Below, piece by piece: positions 3,465 to 22,129 of a stretch of 22,678 nucleotides of DNA. A program made the position numbers and the translations under genes. Numbering within the stretch: the stretch's first letter is position 1; the number at the start of each line of letters is the position of its first letter. The notes under the pieces are model-generated. The model had not been told where the DNA came from. It searched no databases and was given only the letters and a program-made list of their open reading frames with translations. This DNA is from a virus: IMG/VR virus record IMGVR_UViG_3300008624_000071, positions 1 to 22,678 of that record; one strand, 5' to 3'.

Positions 3465-5477
3465 CTATTTATTACTGTGGTACAACAGCGAAGCCTCGTA
3501 GAGCTTAATCTGATGCTCTGCGGCTATTTGATTGATTTCAGAGAGAACTGAGAGCTTCTCTATTTTGTTAAAATCATTAATACACTCCTTGGCCTGATTT
3601 TCCCAATCTTTTTTTTCGGCAGCAATTACAACATTCTCACACAAAGAATCTACTAGCTCCTTCTTTTGTTTGCTGATTCTTTTGATCTTAAATTTATTTT
3701 TTACCTCTGCAGTTACAAATTTCCTAAACTCCTCGATGCCATATACTGTATCTTGAACGTTCTTTCGATTGTATTTTTCTGCCGCGACCTGTTGTTTTAT
3801 TTCTTTAGTACCTAAGGGCCGACCAGGAGAAAGCGGTGTTTGATTAACGTCAGAAGGAGCACCATCTTCTGCCTCATCTAGAGCAGGAGCAATCATCGGG
3901 ACCCCGCCAACCAAAGGATTATAAAAACCTTTTTCTCGCTCGTCTCTATAAGTCTCTTGCCCCTCGGACATGTCGTCCTTATGTGGGAAGACTCCTGTCT
4001 CAATAGCTCGGATGCCTTGGTCTGGAGTAAGAATCCCAAGCTCCATCAATCTAGTAGTAACTCTTTGGAATTGCGCCTCATCCTTTAAGTCTATATCCTC
4101 AAAAGAAGCAAGAGGATAATCCCTAAAGCCTAATGCTTGGCAGACTAATTTTATTTGGGGCTGAAGAAAATCATTAAGGAATGCCTCTCTAGACTCCTTT
4201 AGTCTTTCTAAAAATATTCGAGCCTTAACTTCTGTATTATTGTATCTTTCGTGTCCGACAATAACATTTTGGAGAGCCTCCTTGATATCCTCATTGACTA
4301 CTTTATATTTTTCAGAGCCTAAAACTTTATTCAGGTCAGGCATCACAAAGTCTGCTTTAGTTGTGTAGTCCGAAACTAATACTCGGCCCACACTTTCATT
4401 TTGAAATAGATTTTGCATGGCCGATAGGTTATGAGGATTAATCCCTCCCTTATCTGGCTCAGCGCCCATAGTAATTAATAAAATAACATTTTCGACAGTC
4501 TTAACAATGGCTTGGTCGATTTTCTTTAATTCGATCTTCCAGTTTAAATCATCAAGTATAGGAAAACCAAAAGGCATAGCAAATGGCTCATAATCCTGCT
4601 TTTTATAAAAAGAATAAATTAAGCGCTTAGCGTCAAGCAGTATAGTTACCCCATCCTGAGTCCAGGCACCCTTTTTAATTTTCTTTTTGACTTTCGGATC
4701 TAATGCCTCTAACACTTCTTTATCATAATCAGTCTTGGGGTCCCGTAAGGATTCAAGCTCATATTCAGATAATATTTTTGCGTAATTACCATACTGACCG
4801 CCAGACTTACTAAATGTTAGAGCTCGTTTCGCAACTATATCATAAGGATTAAGAAATGTATACATAATAGGAATCTTACCGTCTTCCACATATTGGCCGC
4901 TCCCTCCATATACAGTTTGCATTTTTCTAATATCATCCTCAGAATATTTACCATCAATGCGATAGACAAAGACATTTCCGCTTCTATAAAATTCCCTAAA
5001 GTACTGATCTTTTACTTGCCAAATTTTAATTTTCTCCAACCACTTGTAGATAAATTTTCGAACCTTCTCGTTTCCTCCCTCAAGGTATATATTGGAGTTA
5101 GAAAACTCAGACATTACATCAATTGTGTTTCTAAAAATTGCTACATTTGCATAGGCTTTTTGGCATAACTGTATGGCATCTTGAATGTCTACGTATCCTT
5201 GGTCTCTATAATTGTAAGGCAATGAGCCCTCTGATATATTAATATATCTATCCAGGATTCGCTTCCCCGCAGCAGCGTTTTGCCTATAGCCCGTAGAACT
5301 GCCCCCGCTTGAGGTCCTGCTATACTTCGCGGCTTTCGAAATATAATATGGCTCCCCTTGGAAAGTTGGGCTCCACTCTTCCCCCATTTTATATAAGTCC
5401 TCAAGGGGCTGCCTATTATCGCTAGCTTTACTAAACTGATTCCAGTACTGGGATTTTTTTGTATATTTTCTTGCCAT
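3465..5477 (-). CDS. Portal protein
   Basis: 670 aa. It would form the dodecameric ring at the capsid vertex through which DNA is packaged and to which the tail joins. The N-terminal ~60 residues are basic and polar. Then comes the usual portal body: VDIQDAIQLCQKAYANVAI, the KIWQVKDQYFREFYRSGNVFVYR stretch, a beta-rich wing, and the long helical crown (VIVGHERYNNTEVKARIF, LKESREAFLNDF). The C-terminal ~80 residues are Lys/Glu-rich. It lies between the terminase and protease-scaffold genes in the standard order. No Shine-Dalgarno is present: the ATG lies 5 nt after a TATAAT box. It is longer than most portals (about 450-550 aa), mostly through the C-terminal extension. Confidence 0.92.
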   Translation of the reverse strand: MARKYTKKSQYWNQFSKASDNRQPLEDLYKMGEEWSPTFQGEPYYISKAAKYSRTSSGGSSTGYRQNAAAGKRILDRYINISEGSLPYNYRDQGYVDIQDAIQLCQKAYANVAIFRNTIDVMSEFSNSNIYLEGGNEKVRKFIYKWLEKIKIWQVKDQYFREFYRSGNVFVYRIDGKYSEDDIRKMQTVYGGSGQYVEDGKIPIMYTFLNPYDIVAKRALTFSKSGGQYGNYAKILSEYELESLRDPKTDYDKEVLEALDPKVKKKIKKGAWTQDGVTILLDAKRLIYSFYKKQDYEPFAMPFGFPILDDLNWKIELKKIDQAIVKTVENVILLITMGAEPDKGGINPHNLSAMQNLFQNESVGRVLVSDYTTKADFVMPDLNKVLGSEKYKVVNEDIKEALQNVIVGHERYNNTEVKARIFLERLKESREAFLNDFLQPQIKLVCQALGFRDYPLASFEDIDLKDEAQFQRVTTRLMELGILTPDQGIRAIETGVFPHKDDMSEGQETYRDEREKGFYNPLVGGVPMIAPALDEAEDGAPSDVNQTPLSPGRPLGTKEIKQQVAAEKYNRKNVQDTVYGIEEFRKFVTAEVKNKFKIKRISKQKKELVDSLCENVVIAAEKKDWENQAKECINDFNKIEKLSVLSEINQIAAEHQIKLYEASLLYHSNK

Positions 5478-8974: not shown

Positions 8975-10026
8975 GTTACATCGCCCTTACTAATCCCAAG
9001 AACACGAGCTTTCCAGCCTGGCATGGATTCAATATTTAAAGCCTCTGCTGCTACTACTTCTTTTTGCATTTCTGCCATTCTTAACATAATTTGACGCTCA
9101 TTTTCATCCTGGAATAATTGTACTAAAGATAAGATAGATGCATTCTCTTCTTGTCTGCCTTGTATCCTTCGCGCTCTGTCACCGTTTAAACGGTTGATGA
9201 GCGACTCCATTCTCTTTTCACATTGATTGTATTCGTCGCTTTTAGTTTTTAATAACTCAGCAAGTCTTACTGTCATATCTCTCTGATCCTCTGCTTCATG
9301 GAACATTCTATTTAGTTTTTCCATTGCTTTGGTTATATTCTTTAGATTAACATAGTCTATGCATACATTGATATATAGATTTATTTCATCTGCTGTTAGA
9401 TCTGGTTTGTCCCAAGTCGTGCGAATAAACTCTGCCTCAAATAGCTCCCTGTCTGTAATGTCCGTATAATTATTGATGACCTGCAATAGTCGAGGAGAAG
9501 ATAAAAACTGCAAAACTGATTCCACGCACTTTCTTTCTCTCAATGCTAGCTTATCAGGCTTTAATTTACTGTGAGTATATTCATTAACTAGCTTTACTGC
9601 TGCCAATTGAGTCTGCGGGGGTTGATACTTCTTCCCCAAAGCAGAGTCTTCCATTTGAAGTAGGTTTGGTCGTTGCTGCTTAATATGCTCTCCAACTACC
9701 AAGGTTTCTTTGCTGAGGGGAGTAATGTGGCTCTCGGGCCATAAAATACATGCGATTTGATAGGCGTTCATGCCATCTTGTGCAGAACGCTCAATAAACT
9801 CTTTCTCGTCATCATCCAATAAGATTCTTTTTGCTTTTTTCTTTTTTGTGGTATTGTATTTAAACCCACACTCTACCAAATATTCTCGAACAAGCTTACC
9901 CTCTTTAGTCCTCCCATCTAAAGAATCGTCATTGAAAACTTTTCGAGTTAATTCAATTAAGTCCGAAATGGTCTTGTGATTGGAATCTATATACGCCTTC
10001 TGTTGCTCAGTAAGTTCTTTTTCCAT
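8971..10026 (-). CDS. Helical protein, possible terminase small subunit
   Basis: 351 aa, mostly helical. Residues 65-110 are basic then HTH-like (KKAKRILLDDDEKEFIERSA, NAYQIACILWP). The centre has FIRTTWDKPDLTADEINLYI, and the C-terminal third is a long coiled coil with Lys/Arg/Glu (MEKLNRMFHEAEDQ). DNA binding through the N-terminal part followed by an oligomerising helical region is the general plan of terminase small subunits, and the gene lies three upstream of the large subunit. I found no diagnostic motif, so an alternative is a DNA-binding regulator. The start overlaps the sigma-like gene by 20 bp; the stop overlaps the nuclease start. Confidence 0.55.
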   Translation of the reverse strand: MEKELTEQQKAYIDSNHKTISDLIELTRKVFNDDSLDGRTKEGKLVREYLVECGFKYNTTKKKKAKRILLDDDEKEFIERSAQDGMNAYQIACILWPESHITPLSKETLVVGEHIKQQRPNLLQMEDSALGKKYQPPQTQLAAVKLVNEYTHSKLKPDKLALRERKCVESVLQFLSSPRLLQVINNYTDITDRELFEAEFIRTTWDKPDLTADEINLYINVCIDYVNLKNITKAMEKLNRMFHEAEDQRDMTVRLAELLKTKSDEYNQCEKRMESLINRLNGDRARRIQGRQEENASILSLVQLFQDENERQIMLRMAEMQKEVVAAEALNIESMPGWKARVLGISKGDVT

Positions 10027-10753
10027 TTGATGAAATAATTATATCTTCTTTTTGAAGAAGTTCTTCTACGGTTGTTTTAAAAAACTTTTTAAGATTGCGG
10101 ATTTGTTTATATCCTGCCGTTCTGCCTGTTTCTGATGTTTTATACCCCATGGCCTCAGCAACTTCTCTGTCTGATAGATTATCTATATATAACATTTTAT
10201 AGGCTTTATACTTTTTCTCGTTCAACATGTCCTTCATCCGACCATGCACTCTACCAATTGCATCCTCAAGGCACGGATAAGAGGTTTCTGGTAGCGAGAA
10301 AGCCTCTTGCGAATGATGTTCTATGGTCACGGCCATCTTAGTCATGTATGCTGATTTTTTTGTAACCTCCCATTTTGCATAAAGCGGACATTCATTGCAT
10401 TGGAGACCGCTAGCAGTAAAGCCGCAAAGACCGTCCTTGTCTTCTGTCGGTGGCCCACTTTGATTAAAGGGACAATTTAAACACGGGCGAACATAGTTCC
10501 CGTAGTTATTCCTTAAAATGTTTTTTAATTGATTAGAGATAATTTTATTTAACCAGGGCTCTAATGCCCTGGATTGATCCCATTGATCCCATTTTTTGTG
10601 GATATGGGCGCGAATGATTTGCTTGACATCGTCATAGTCCATCCACGCAACAGAGTTGAGAAACCATTTATGGCTTCGTTTGGCTAACTCCGCGTCTATT
10701 ACCTCCGCTTTATCTGCGTAGGTTAGTTTCGGTTCTTTTTTCTTTTTACTCAA
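10007..10753 (-). CDS. Sigma-factor-like protein with a Cys cluster
   Basis: 248 aa. Residues 33-85 resemble sigma region 2 (WMDYDDVKQIIRAHIHKKW, LEPWLNKIISNQLKNILRNN). Residues 192-226 look like a region 4 helix-turn-helix (NLSDREVAEAMGYKTSETGR, then YKQIRNLKKFF). Between them lies a Cys-rich insertion with CLNCP (91-95), Cys110, and CNECP (119-123), probably a metal site. It would direct RNA polymerase to phage late promoters, as T4 gp55 does; this is inferred from architecture and from its place at the head of the virion block. The -10-only boxes before several late genes would be its natural targets. The start overlaps the preceding gene by 8 bp. Confidence 0.7.
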   Translation of the reverse strand: MSKKKKEPKLTYADKAEVIDAELAKRSHKWFLNSVAWMDYDDVKQIIRAHIHKKWDQWDQSRALEPWLNKIISNQLKNILRNNYGNYVRPCLNCPFNQSGPPTEDKDGLCGFTASGLQCNECPLYAKWEVTKKSAYMTKMAVTIEHHSQEAFSLPETSYPCLEDAIGRVHGRMKDMLNEKKYKAYKMLYIDNLSDREVAEAMGYKTSETGRTAGYKQIRNLKKFFKTTVEELLQKEDIIISSNGKRTY

Positions 10754-14081: not shown

Positions 14082-14287
14082 AACAAAATCGAGCCACGAG
14101 CCCAGTAATAGAGCCAAACAGCAAAATAATTTCAAAAAAAATCGTTTAAAGCTCTTTAAATTGTCAAAAATTCGGGGAGAAATCATTTAATCCATTTAAT
14201 TCGAATTTAATTCGGAATAAATACTACTTTTAATATAAGTTAATACTTACCTAAGTATCGGCCGCCAGCCCAGTGATAGAGCCATTT

Positions 14288-21850: not shown

Positions 21851-21946
21851 TGCTAAATTGTGTGTTGTACCTTTTTCTCTCTCCCCTTCGGGTTGTAGGC
21901 GTGTGCTGACGCCTCGTTGTTCAATCTTTCGATCTACAGAAAAAGC

Positions 21947-22070
21947 AGTCCACGGAGGGATTCGAACCCTCGTCTTCGCCTATCCCACAACTGATCAGGT
22001 TGCTCCACCATTATCTAGAATAGATGAAGTAAAGGAGGCGCTGTTCTAGACCTGACTAAACTACGCGGAC
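21947..22070 (-). tRNA. tRNA-like gene with an expanded anticodon region
   Basis: The ends are clear: acceptor GTCCGCG/CGTGGAC (7 pairs, one G-U), D stem GTTT/GAAC with loop AGTCAGGTCTA, T arm GAGGG-TTCGAAT-CCCTC and a 5-nt variable loop (AAGAC). A possible anticodon stem CGCCT/AGGCG sits at nearly the right distance, but it encloses 54 nt instead of 7. Inside are hairpins ATCTA-TTC-TAGAT and GCAAC-CTGATCA-GTTGT; the latter alone looks like an anticodon arm reading GAU. No 3' CCA is encoded. It could be a tRNA with a ~47-nt insertion or intron, or a recombined, inactive tRNA. Amino acid not assigned. It has its own promoter. Confidence 0.55.
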
Positions 22071-22101
22071 ACAATAAAAGTCTTTCAATTAACTATCTCC
22101 A

Positions 22102-22129
22102 ATAATAGACTATAGGGGTTTAAAGTCAA
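22102..22129 (-). promoter_or_regulatory. Promoter of the tRNA-like gene
   Basis: TTGACT (22124-22129), a 16-bp spacer and TATTAT (22102-22107), about 31 bp before the tRNA 5' end. Confidence 0.75.

Follow-up and report, generated by a model that had tools for sequence, protein, structure and literature searches.

A phage tRNA-like RNA with two palindromic loops in place of the anticodon arm, a candidate for self-association

The locus and its tRNA-like domain

The window (the whole 22,678-base stretch analysed here, a virus record) carries terminase, PhoH-like and ERCC4-type nuclease genes and, on the minus strand, an RNA gene whose features are collected in Table 1. The Rfam tRNA model (RF00005) matches nt 22070-21947 (-) end to end with 44 bits, against a cut-off of 29 bits (E 1.5e-6), and leaves about 55 nt of the anticodon arm unmodelled. 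An earlier note on this DNA had described a tRNA-like gene with extra nucleotides in the anticodon arm and an otherwise canonical body, and the covariance model confirms both points: nothing in the 7-bp acceptor, the D arm, the T arm or the short variable loop departs from the canonical form. Where a functional tRNA has a 7-nt anticodon loop on a 5-bp stem, about 54 nt lie inside the stem. ARAGORN did not call a tRNA at nt 22070-21947 (-), and a faster own-genome search gave no entry above the cut-off for the window. When the RNA was searched against Rfam 15, the generic tRNA was the sole matching family; the covariance models of GOLLD, ROOL and OLE did not match the RNA, and tmRNA (RF00023) had no match in the window, either at the gathering threshold or at E up to 5. 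Permissive Rfam thresholds, applied to the locus and a relative, added only chance-level matches to that of tRNA, and a Y-RNA-like match (15 bits) was dismissed.

Table 1. Features of the RNA gene in the window
Feature	Sequence	Position	Strand	Evidence
Promoter-like site	TTGACT-16-TATTAT	22102-22129	(-)	consensus scan 10/12; conserved in relatives
Leader	ends TTAATTGAAAGACTTTTATTGTG	22071-22101	(-)	nearly invariant in window, L004 and L005
tRNA-like domain (124 nt, CCA not encoded)		21947-22070	(-)	RF00005, 44 bits; model R1, 97 bits
Acceptor stem, 7 bp	GTCCGCG/CGTGGAC	22064-22070/21954-21948	(-)	6/7 pairs changed on both sides among relatives
D arm	GTTT/GAAC	22043-22061	(-)	covariation
Stem P, at the anticodon position	CGCCT/AGGCG	22036-22040/21981-21977	(-)	5/5 pairs changed on both sides
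Insert hairpin A	CTTCATC-TATTCTAGATAAT-GGTGGAG	22003-22029	(-)	RNAalifold on unforced alignment; covariation
Palindrome in loop A, proposed kissing site 1	UCUAGA	22014-22019	(-)	9 distinct loops, all palindromic, 0/500 shuffles
Insert hairpin B	CAAC-CTGATCA-GTTG	21988-22002	(-)	covariation
Palindrome in loop B, proposed kissing site 2	UGAUCA	21992-21997	(-)	95% paired over 7 distinct loops
T arm	GAGGG-TTCGAAT-CCCTC	21955-21971	(-)	RF00005 match
Discriminator base	U73	21947	(-)	
3' domain, four-way junction	closed by CTTTTTC/GAAAAAG	21870-21946	(-)	in >20 relatives
Three hairpins of the 3' domain	GATC-GAAA-GATT, AGGCGT-CAGCAC-ACGCCT, CCC-GAAG-GGG		(-)	

The dedicated promoter suggested by the earlier note is likely; the promoter-like site, sigma-70-like and conserved in relatives, lies 31 nt upstream of the tRNA-like gene; sites of this quality number 2 in the region, against 0.6 expected. 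A weak match to sigma-70 region 2, below the Pfam cut-off, is present elsewhere in the window (nt 10007-10753 (-)), and the phage may encode a sigma factor. The trailer of the tRNA-like gene is also conserved in relatives. The 3' domain begins after the discriminator base, and its closing stem and first hairpin vary while pairing is kept, the former being CUUUUUC/GAAAAAG here and CUCUUUC/GAAAGAG in other members, the latter measuring 12 nt at its shortest and over 50 nt at its longest. Variation is slight in the linkers GAACAACGA, UACAACC and GAGAG.

Relatives in other phages and the structure of the insert

The RNA is present in three sister phages, as one identical copy, one 124-nt variant and, in L004/L067, a 112-nt version; both flanks are almost invariant. 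In L004 the acceptor stem is GGCCCTG/CAGGGCC, relative to GTCCGCG/CGTGGAC in the window, and stem P reads CTCTC/GAGAG, relative to CGCCT/AGGCG. Because both stems differ by compensatory changes, the gene is under selection as an RNA.

Further relatives were gathered with the conserved 3' flank as bait, a procedure blind to the tRNA-like part and its loops, which gave more than 20 distinct phage loci, with 23 tRNA-like units extracted in front of the flank. In a skeleton alignment of 20 of these RNAs, 98.8% of the cells are paired and 211 double-sided changes are seen (62 in shuffles), and the pairing signal collapses when the partners are slid. RNAalifold, run on an unforced MAFFT alignment of 11 members, recovered the acceptor stem, the D and T arms, stem P and the two insert hairpins, with double-sided changes in 26 of the 31 pairs. 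Some alignment segments and loops were picked by hand, while the RNAalifold run and the palindrome count over 14 clusters (below) were automatic. A covariance model built on the 11-member alignment, R1, scores the window at 97 bits and usually finds one strong copy in each phage record, contigs as long as 100-180 kb included. Two members, L085 and L119, have a different, non-palindromic second hairpin. Beyond these phages, blast of the RNA and its 3' domain against annotated phages found no full-length relative, and pattern searches of 84,980 species genomes gave no match, the bacterial genomes of the set included. A two-loop pattern used without a tRNA check returned several false positives in coding sequence (L089-L098), which were discarded.

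The possible anticodon stem pointed out in the earlier note (stem P) is real, with compensatory changes in other relatives besides L004. So are the two hairpins it placed in the insert, of which the second does resemble an anticodon arm, while the first had to be redrawn (Table 1). For the window RNA alone, the free minimum-energy fold (-37.3) is not the proposed one (-35.5). The position of the insert in an otherwise canonical body would fit a functional tRNA with a short intron of unknown type, as the earlier note had proposed, but if the insert is taken out, the relatives do not share a 5-bp stem capped by a 7-nt anticodon loop. In them stem P has between 5 and 8 bp, its tip lacks a common anticodon loop, conserved elements sit within the insert, which is also too short for a group I intron, and CCA is not encoded, unlike in the tRNA-Leu and tRNA-Cys of sister phage L003. 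An intron is very unlikely, and a recombination of two tRNAs, likewise proposed, is not needed as an explanation.

Several other elements were observed in the window and in other phages. An inverted repeat, TTGGCACGG..CCGTGCCAA, occurs at 9 places between nt 14286 and 22202 of the window (18 half-site matches, 0.2 expected); it comes after tRNA genes in sister phages and is perhaps a terminator family. Additional structured RNAs, with long closing stems (e.g. GCTAGGTCAG..CTGACCTAG), adjoin the tRNA-like gene in L004 (~4810-4920, a stretch absent from the window), L106, L107, L071 and L103. At L116:5513-5843 (-) two unlike tRNA-like units stand one behind the other, and the 3' domain, or its beginning, comes after each. 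Full-length Rfam tmRNA matches at L116:5423-5486 (-) and L037:1748-1828 (-), of 64 and 81 nt and 59 and 57 bits, are mini-tmRNAs, in which the tRNA-like ends of tmRNA are kept and the message part is missing, and adjoin palindromic-loop tRNA-like RNAs; in L024 and L083 a similar GGAAGGTTTCG start comes after the tRNA-like RNA. The manA RNA (RF01745) is found at L071:8411-8620 (+) and L109:464-673 (+). Long tRNA-like genes of 102-155 nt occur in phage tRNA arrays (L012:12205-12306, L012:12458-12573, L064:1335-1467 and L037:11876-12030, all (-)) and have anticodon-arm inserts, mostly without palindromic loops. Since these are not all palindromic-looped, not every long tRNA-like gene belongs to the family.

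The palindromic loops and their possible partners

Loop A of the window reads AU-UCUAGA-UAA, and its core in relatives is CCUAGG, ACUAGU, ACAUGU, GUUAAC or GGUACC. Every aligned loop A carries a 6-nt palindrome: scored as pairs in trans, 9 of 9 distinct loops are fully palindromic, with 9 double-changed cells (0/500 shuffles), and the signal is lost once the partner is shifted. Loop B, C-UGAUCA in the window, is U-UGAUCA, C-UAGCUA or U-UAGCUA in relatives, or UAAUUA in 9-nt loops, and is 95% paired in trans over 7 distinct loops (5 double changes); two lineages have a non-palindromic loop B, CGAUCA (L107/L109) and UCGCU (L116 unit a). The automatic count over 14 cluster representatives placed 20 palindromes in hairpin loops, where dinucleotide shuffles give 4.0 +/- 1.9 (0/500). 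Most B loops have 7 nt (1+6+0), and some have 9 nt in the layout 2+6+1 (L104, L106, L124), which is that of the HIV-1 DIS loop. None of the four explanations in the earlier note predicted palindromic loops.

The family combines palindromic loops with palindrome-preserving covariation. Since adjacent loop bases have no way of pairing inside a single molecule, such covariation is a sign of base pairing between molecules; in OLE and GOLLD, intermolecular kissing was inferred in the same manner, from covariation at adjacent loop nucleotides (PMC12286853). In the proposed picture, a dedicated promoter drives a non-coding phage RNA of ~200 nt, whose 5' part is a tRNA body made up of the acceptor and the D and T arms, with a conserved four-way-junction domain on its 3' side. 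A three-way junction in place of the anticodon arm presents the two loops with their 6-nt palindromes. Two copies would pair through the same loop (homotypic kissing, in a layout like that of HIV-1 DIS), and two different self-pairing loops on one branched body could give dimers, chains or closed rings, while the tRNA body would probably be a stable scaffold open to processing by RNase P. We consider this reading, self-association of a tRNA scaffold through two homotypic kissing loops, to be moderately probable on the comparative sequence data. Copies of the RNA probably stick to one another, and any specific role for their assembly is put forward with much less confidence. Counting against this reading, the UAAUUA duplex by itself is weak (-0.4 kcal/mol), some B loops and the second hairpins of L085 and L119 are non-palindromic, and the window RNA alone has a different free minimum-energy fold.

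The UGAUCA loop is also found outside the family. A pattern of CTGATCA plus a T arm occurs at 55 distinct viral places, with at least 4 flanking pairs in 18 of them (chance ~2%), and 14 of these 18 also have an acceptor and D arm. With CTAGCTA, another palindromic heptamer, as control, such hairpins were seen in 1 of 40, and confidence in the kissing reading was lowered because this control did not show the same enrichment. That UGAUCA itself is favoured outside the window's family, which a pure any-palindrome rule does not explain, is the main weakness of the proposal. The CTAGCTA pattern also uncovered a separate tRNA-like family in large phage contigs (L132, L148, L157, L160, L174, L182), in which GGTTGACCAC precedes a long palindrome, CTAGCTAG or GCTAGCTAGC; the palindrome was in part selected by the way the family was found.

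The preference for UGAUCA would also suit a monomeric RNA with loops that serve as binding sites for a symmetric (dimeric) protein or for a second RNA with a palindromic site of its own, the symmetry alone being silent on the pairing partner. It is hard to see, however, how one protein or target could serve six loop A and three loop B palindromes without a common sequence, and this alternative seems unlikely.

Another reading takes loop B as an imitation of the tRNA-Ile(GAU) anticodon arm, CUGAUCA being one base off the usual CUGAUAA, with the RNA soaking up an anticodon nuclease or another tRNA-binding defence factor. Such a decoy would agree with most members having a 7-nt loop whose position 33 is U, with the tRNA-Ile(gat) that ARAGORN calls in CBA120 and HK639, and with CTGATCA being commoner than CTAGCTA among the hairpin loops of tRNA-like RNAs in viruses. 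However, the same loop is UAGCUA, UAAUUA or CGAUCA in relatives, position 37 in loop B is C whereas Ile tRNAs have A there, the arm is too long for a tRNA frame, the equally conserved loop A is left unexplained, and a true tRNA-Ile(gat) is also encoded in L024, L037 and L021. The decoy and intron readings, considered first, were lowered when the blindly collected relatives showed changing loops, and a fixed-anticodon decoy, of the kind the earlier note had raised, is now improbable.

Among cultured phages, Escherichia phage HK639 carries an unannotated UGAUCA-loop tRNA-like RNA in its early leftward operon, and 74 Ackermannviridae records, CBA120 and Maynard leading, carry an RNA of this type that is annotated as tRNA-Ile or tRNA-OTHER in some and has no annotation in others. 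The match is limited to the first 37 nt in about 27 of these records, and in the four read directly (Det7, SFP10, FEC14 and SilasIsHot) the RNA has been shortened by deletion. While this shortening of a homologous RNA is what a decayed tRNA would display, decay, which the earlier note had also raised, or chance is contradicted for the window's family by compensatory changes in all stems and by the conserved promoter region and flanks, and can be given almost no weight.

Comparison with known RNAs and implications

The HK639 RNA and those called 'tRNA-Ile(gat)' or 'tRNA-OTHER' in Kuttervirus and Agtrevirus (CBA120, AG3) share with the present RNA the tRNA-like body and the CUGAUCA anticodon-arm hairpin, but have neither loop A nor the 3' domain, their D arm is reduced and CCA is encoded. 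The tRNA-like domain of tmRNA is likewise a tRNA body with the anticodon arm swapped for another structure; unlike tmRNA, the present RNA has a canonical D arm and no tag reading frame. GOLLD and ROOL are RNA nanocages of phages and prophages, GOLLD members often exceeding 800 nt (PMC12286853). They too are phage-encoded, structured and non-coding, tied to tRNA regions, and have palindromic symmetric kissing loops (here proposed) with palindrome-preserving covariation (PMC12286853), while the RNA described here is ~200 nt long, based on a tRNA fold and without an Rfam match to them. The HIV-1 DIS (PMC4066764) has a similar 6-nt self-complementary loop core (some loops here have 9 nt), but it is one loop on a viral genome, whereas the small tRNA-like RNA described here carries two that differ from each other. 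Designed RNA nanostars, synthetic four-armed molecules with palindromic kissing loops, form condensates (PMC11567899); they are also branched RNAs with self-complementary loops, and GGUACC is found both in one design and in L085, whereas the present RNA is natural and has two such loops instead of four arms.

No description of the tRNA-like RNA was found in the open-access papers searched, and within the scope of these comparisons the architecture, a tRNA body with two palindromic loops, is new. If the mechanism is right, it has precedents in the kissing-loop homo-oligomers GOLLD, ROOL, OLE and HIV DIS. A broader and distinctly tentative proposal is that phages belonging to several unrelated groups encode small tRNA mimics, each of which uses two orthogonal palindromic loops to build defined homo-oligomers such as rings or cages. 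These would resemble GOLLD and ROOL cages on a smaller, tRNA-based scale, and during infection they could sequester or keep busy factors of tRNA handling or translation.

Some phage genes annotated as tRNA-Ile or tRNA-OTHER are probably not tRNAs. RNA homo-oligomers are seldom met in nature, and those known from phages, GOLLD and ROOL, are large; if the proposal is true, a two-loop RNA of ~200 nt would make the role of phage RNA assemblies testable by plaque assay, and the simpler UGAUCA forms in the cultured phages HK639 and CBA120 would bring that question within its reach.
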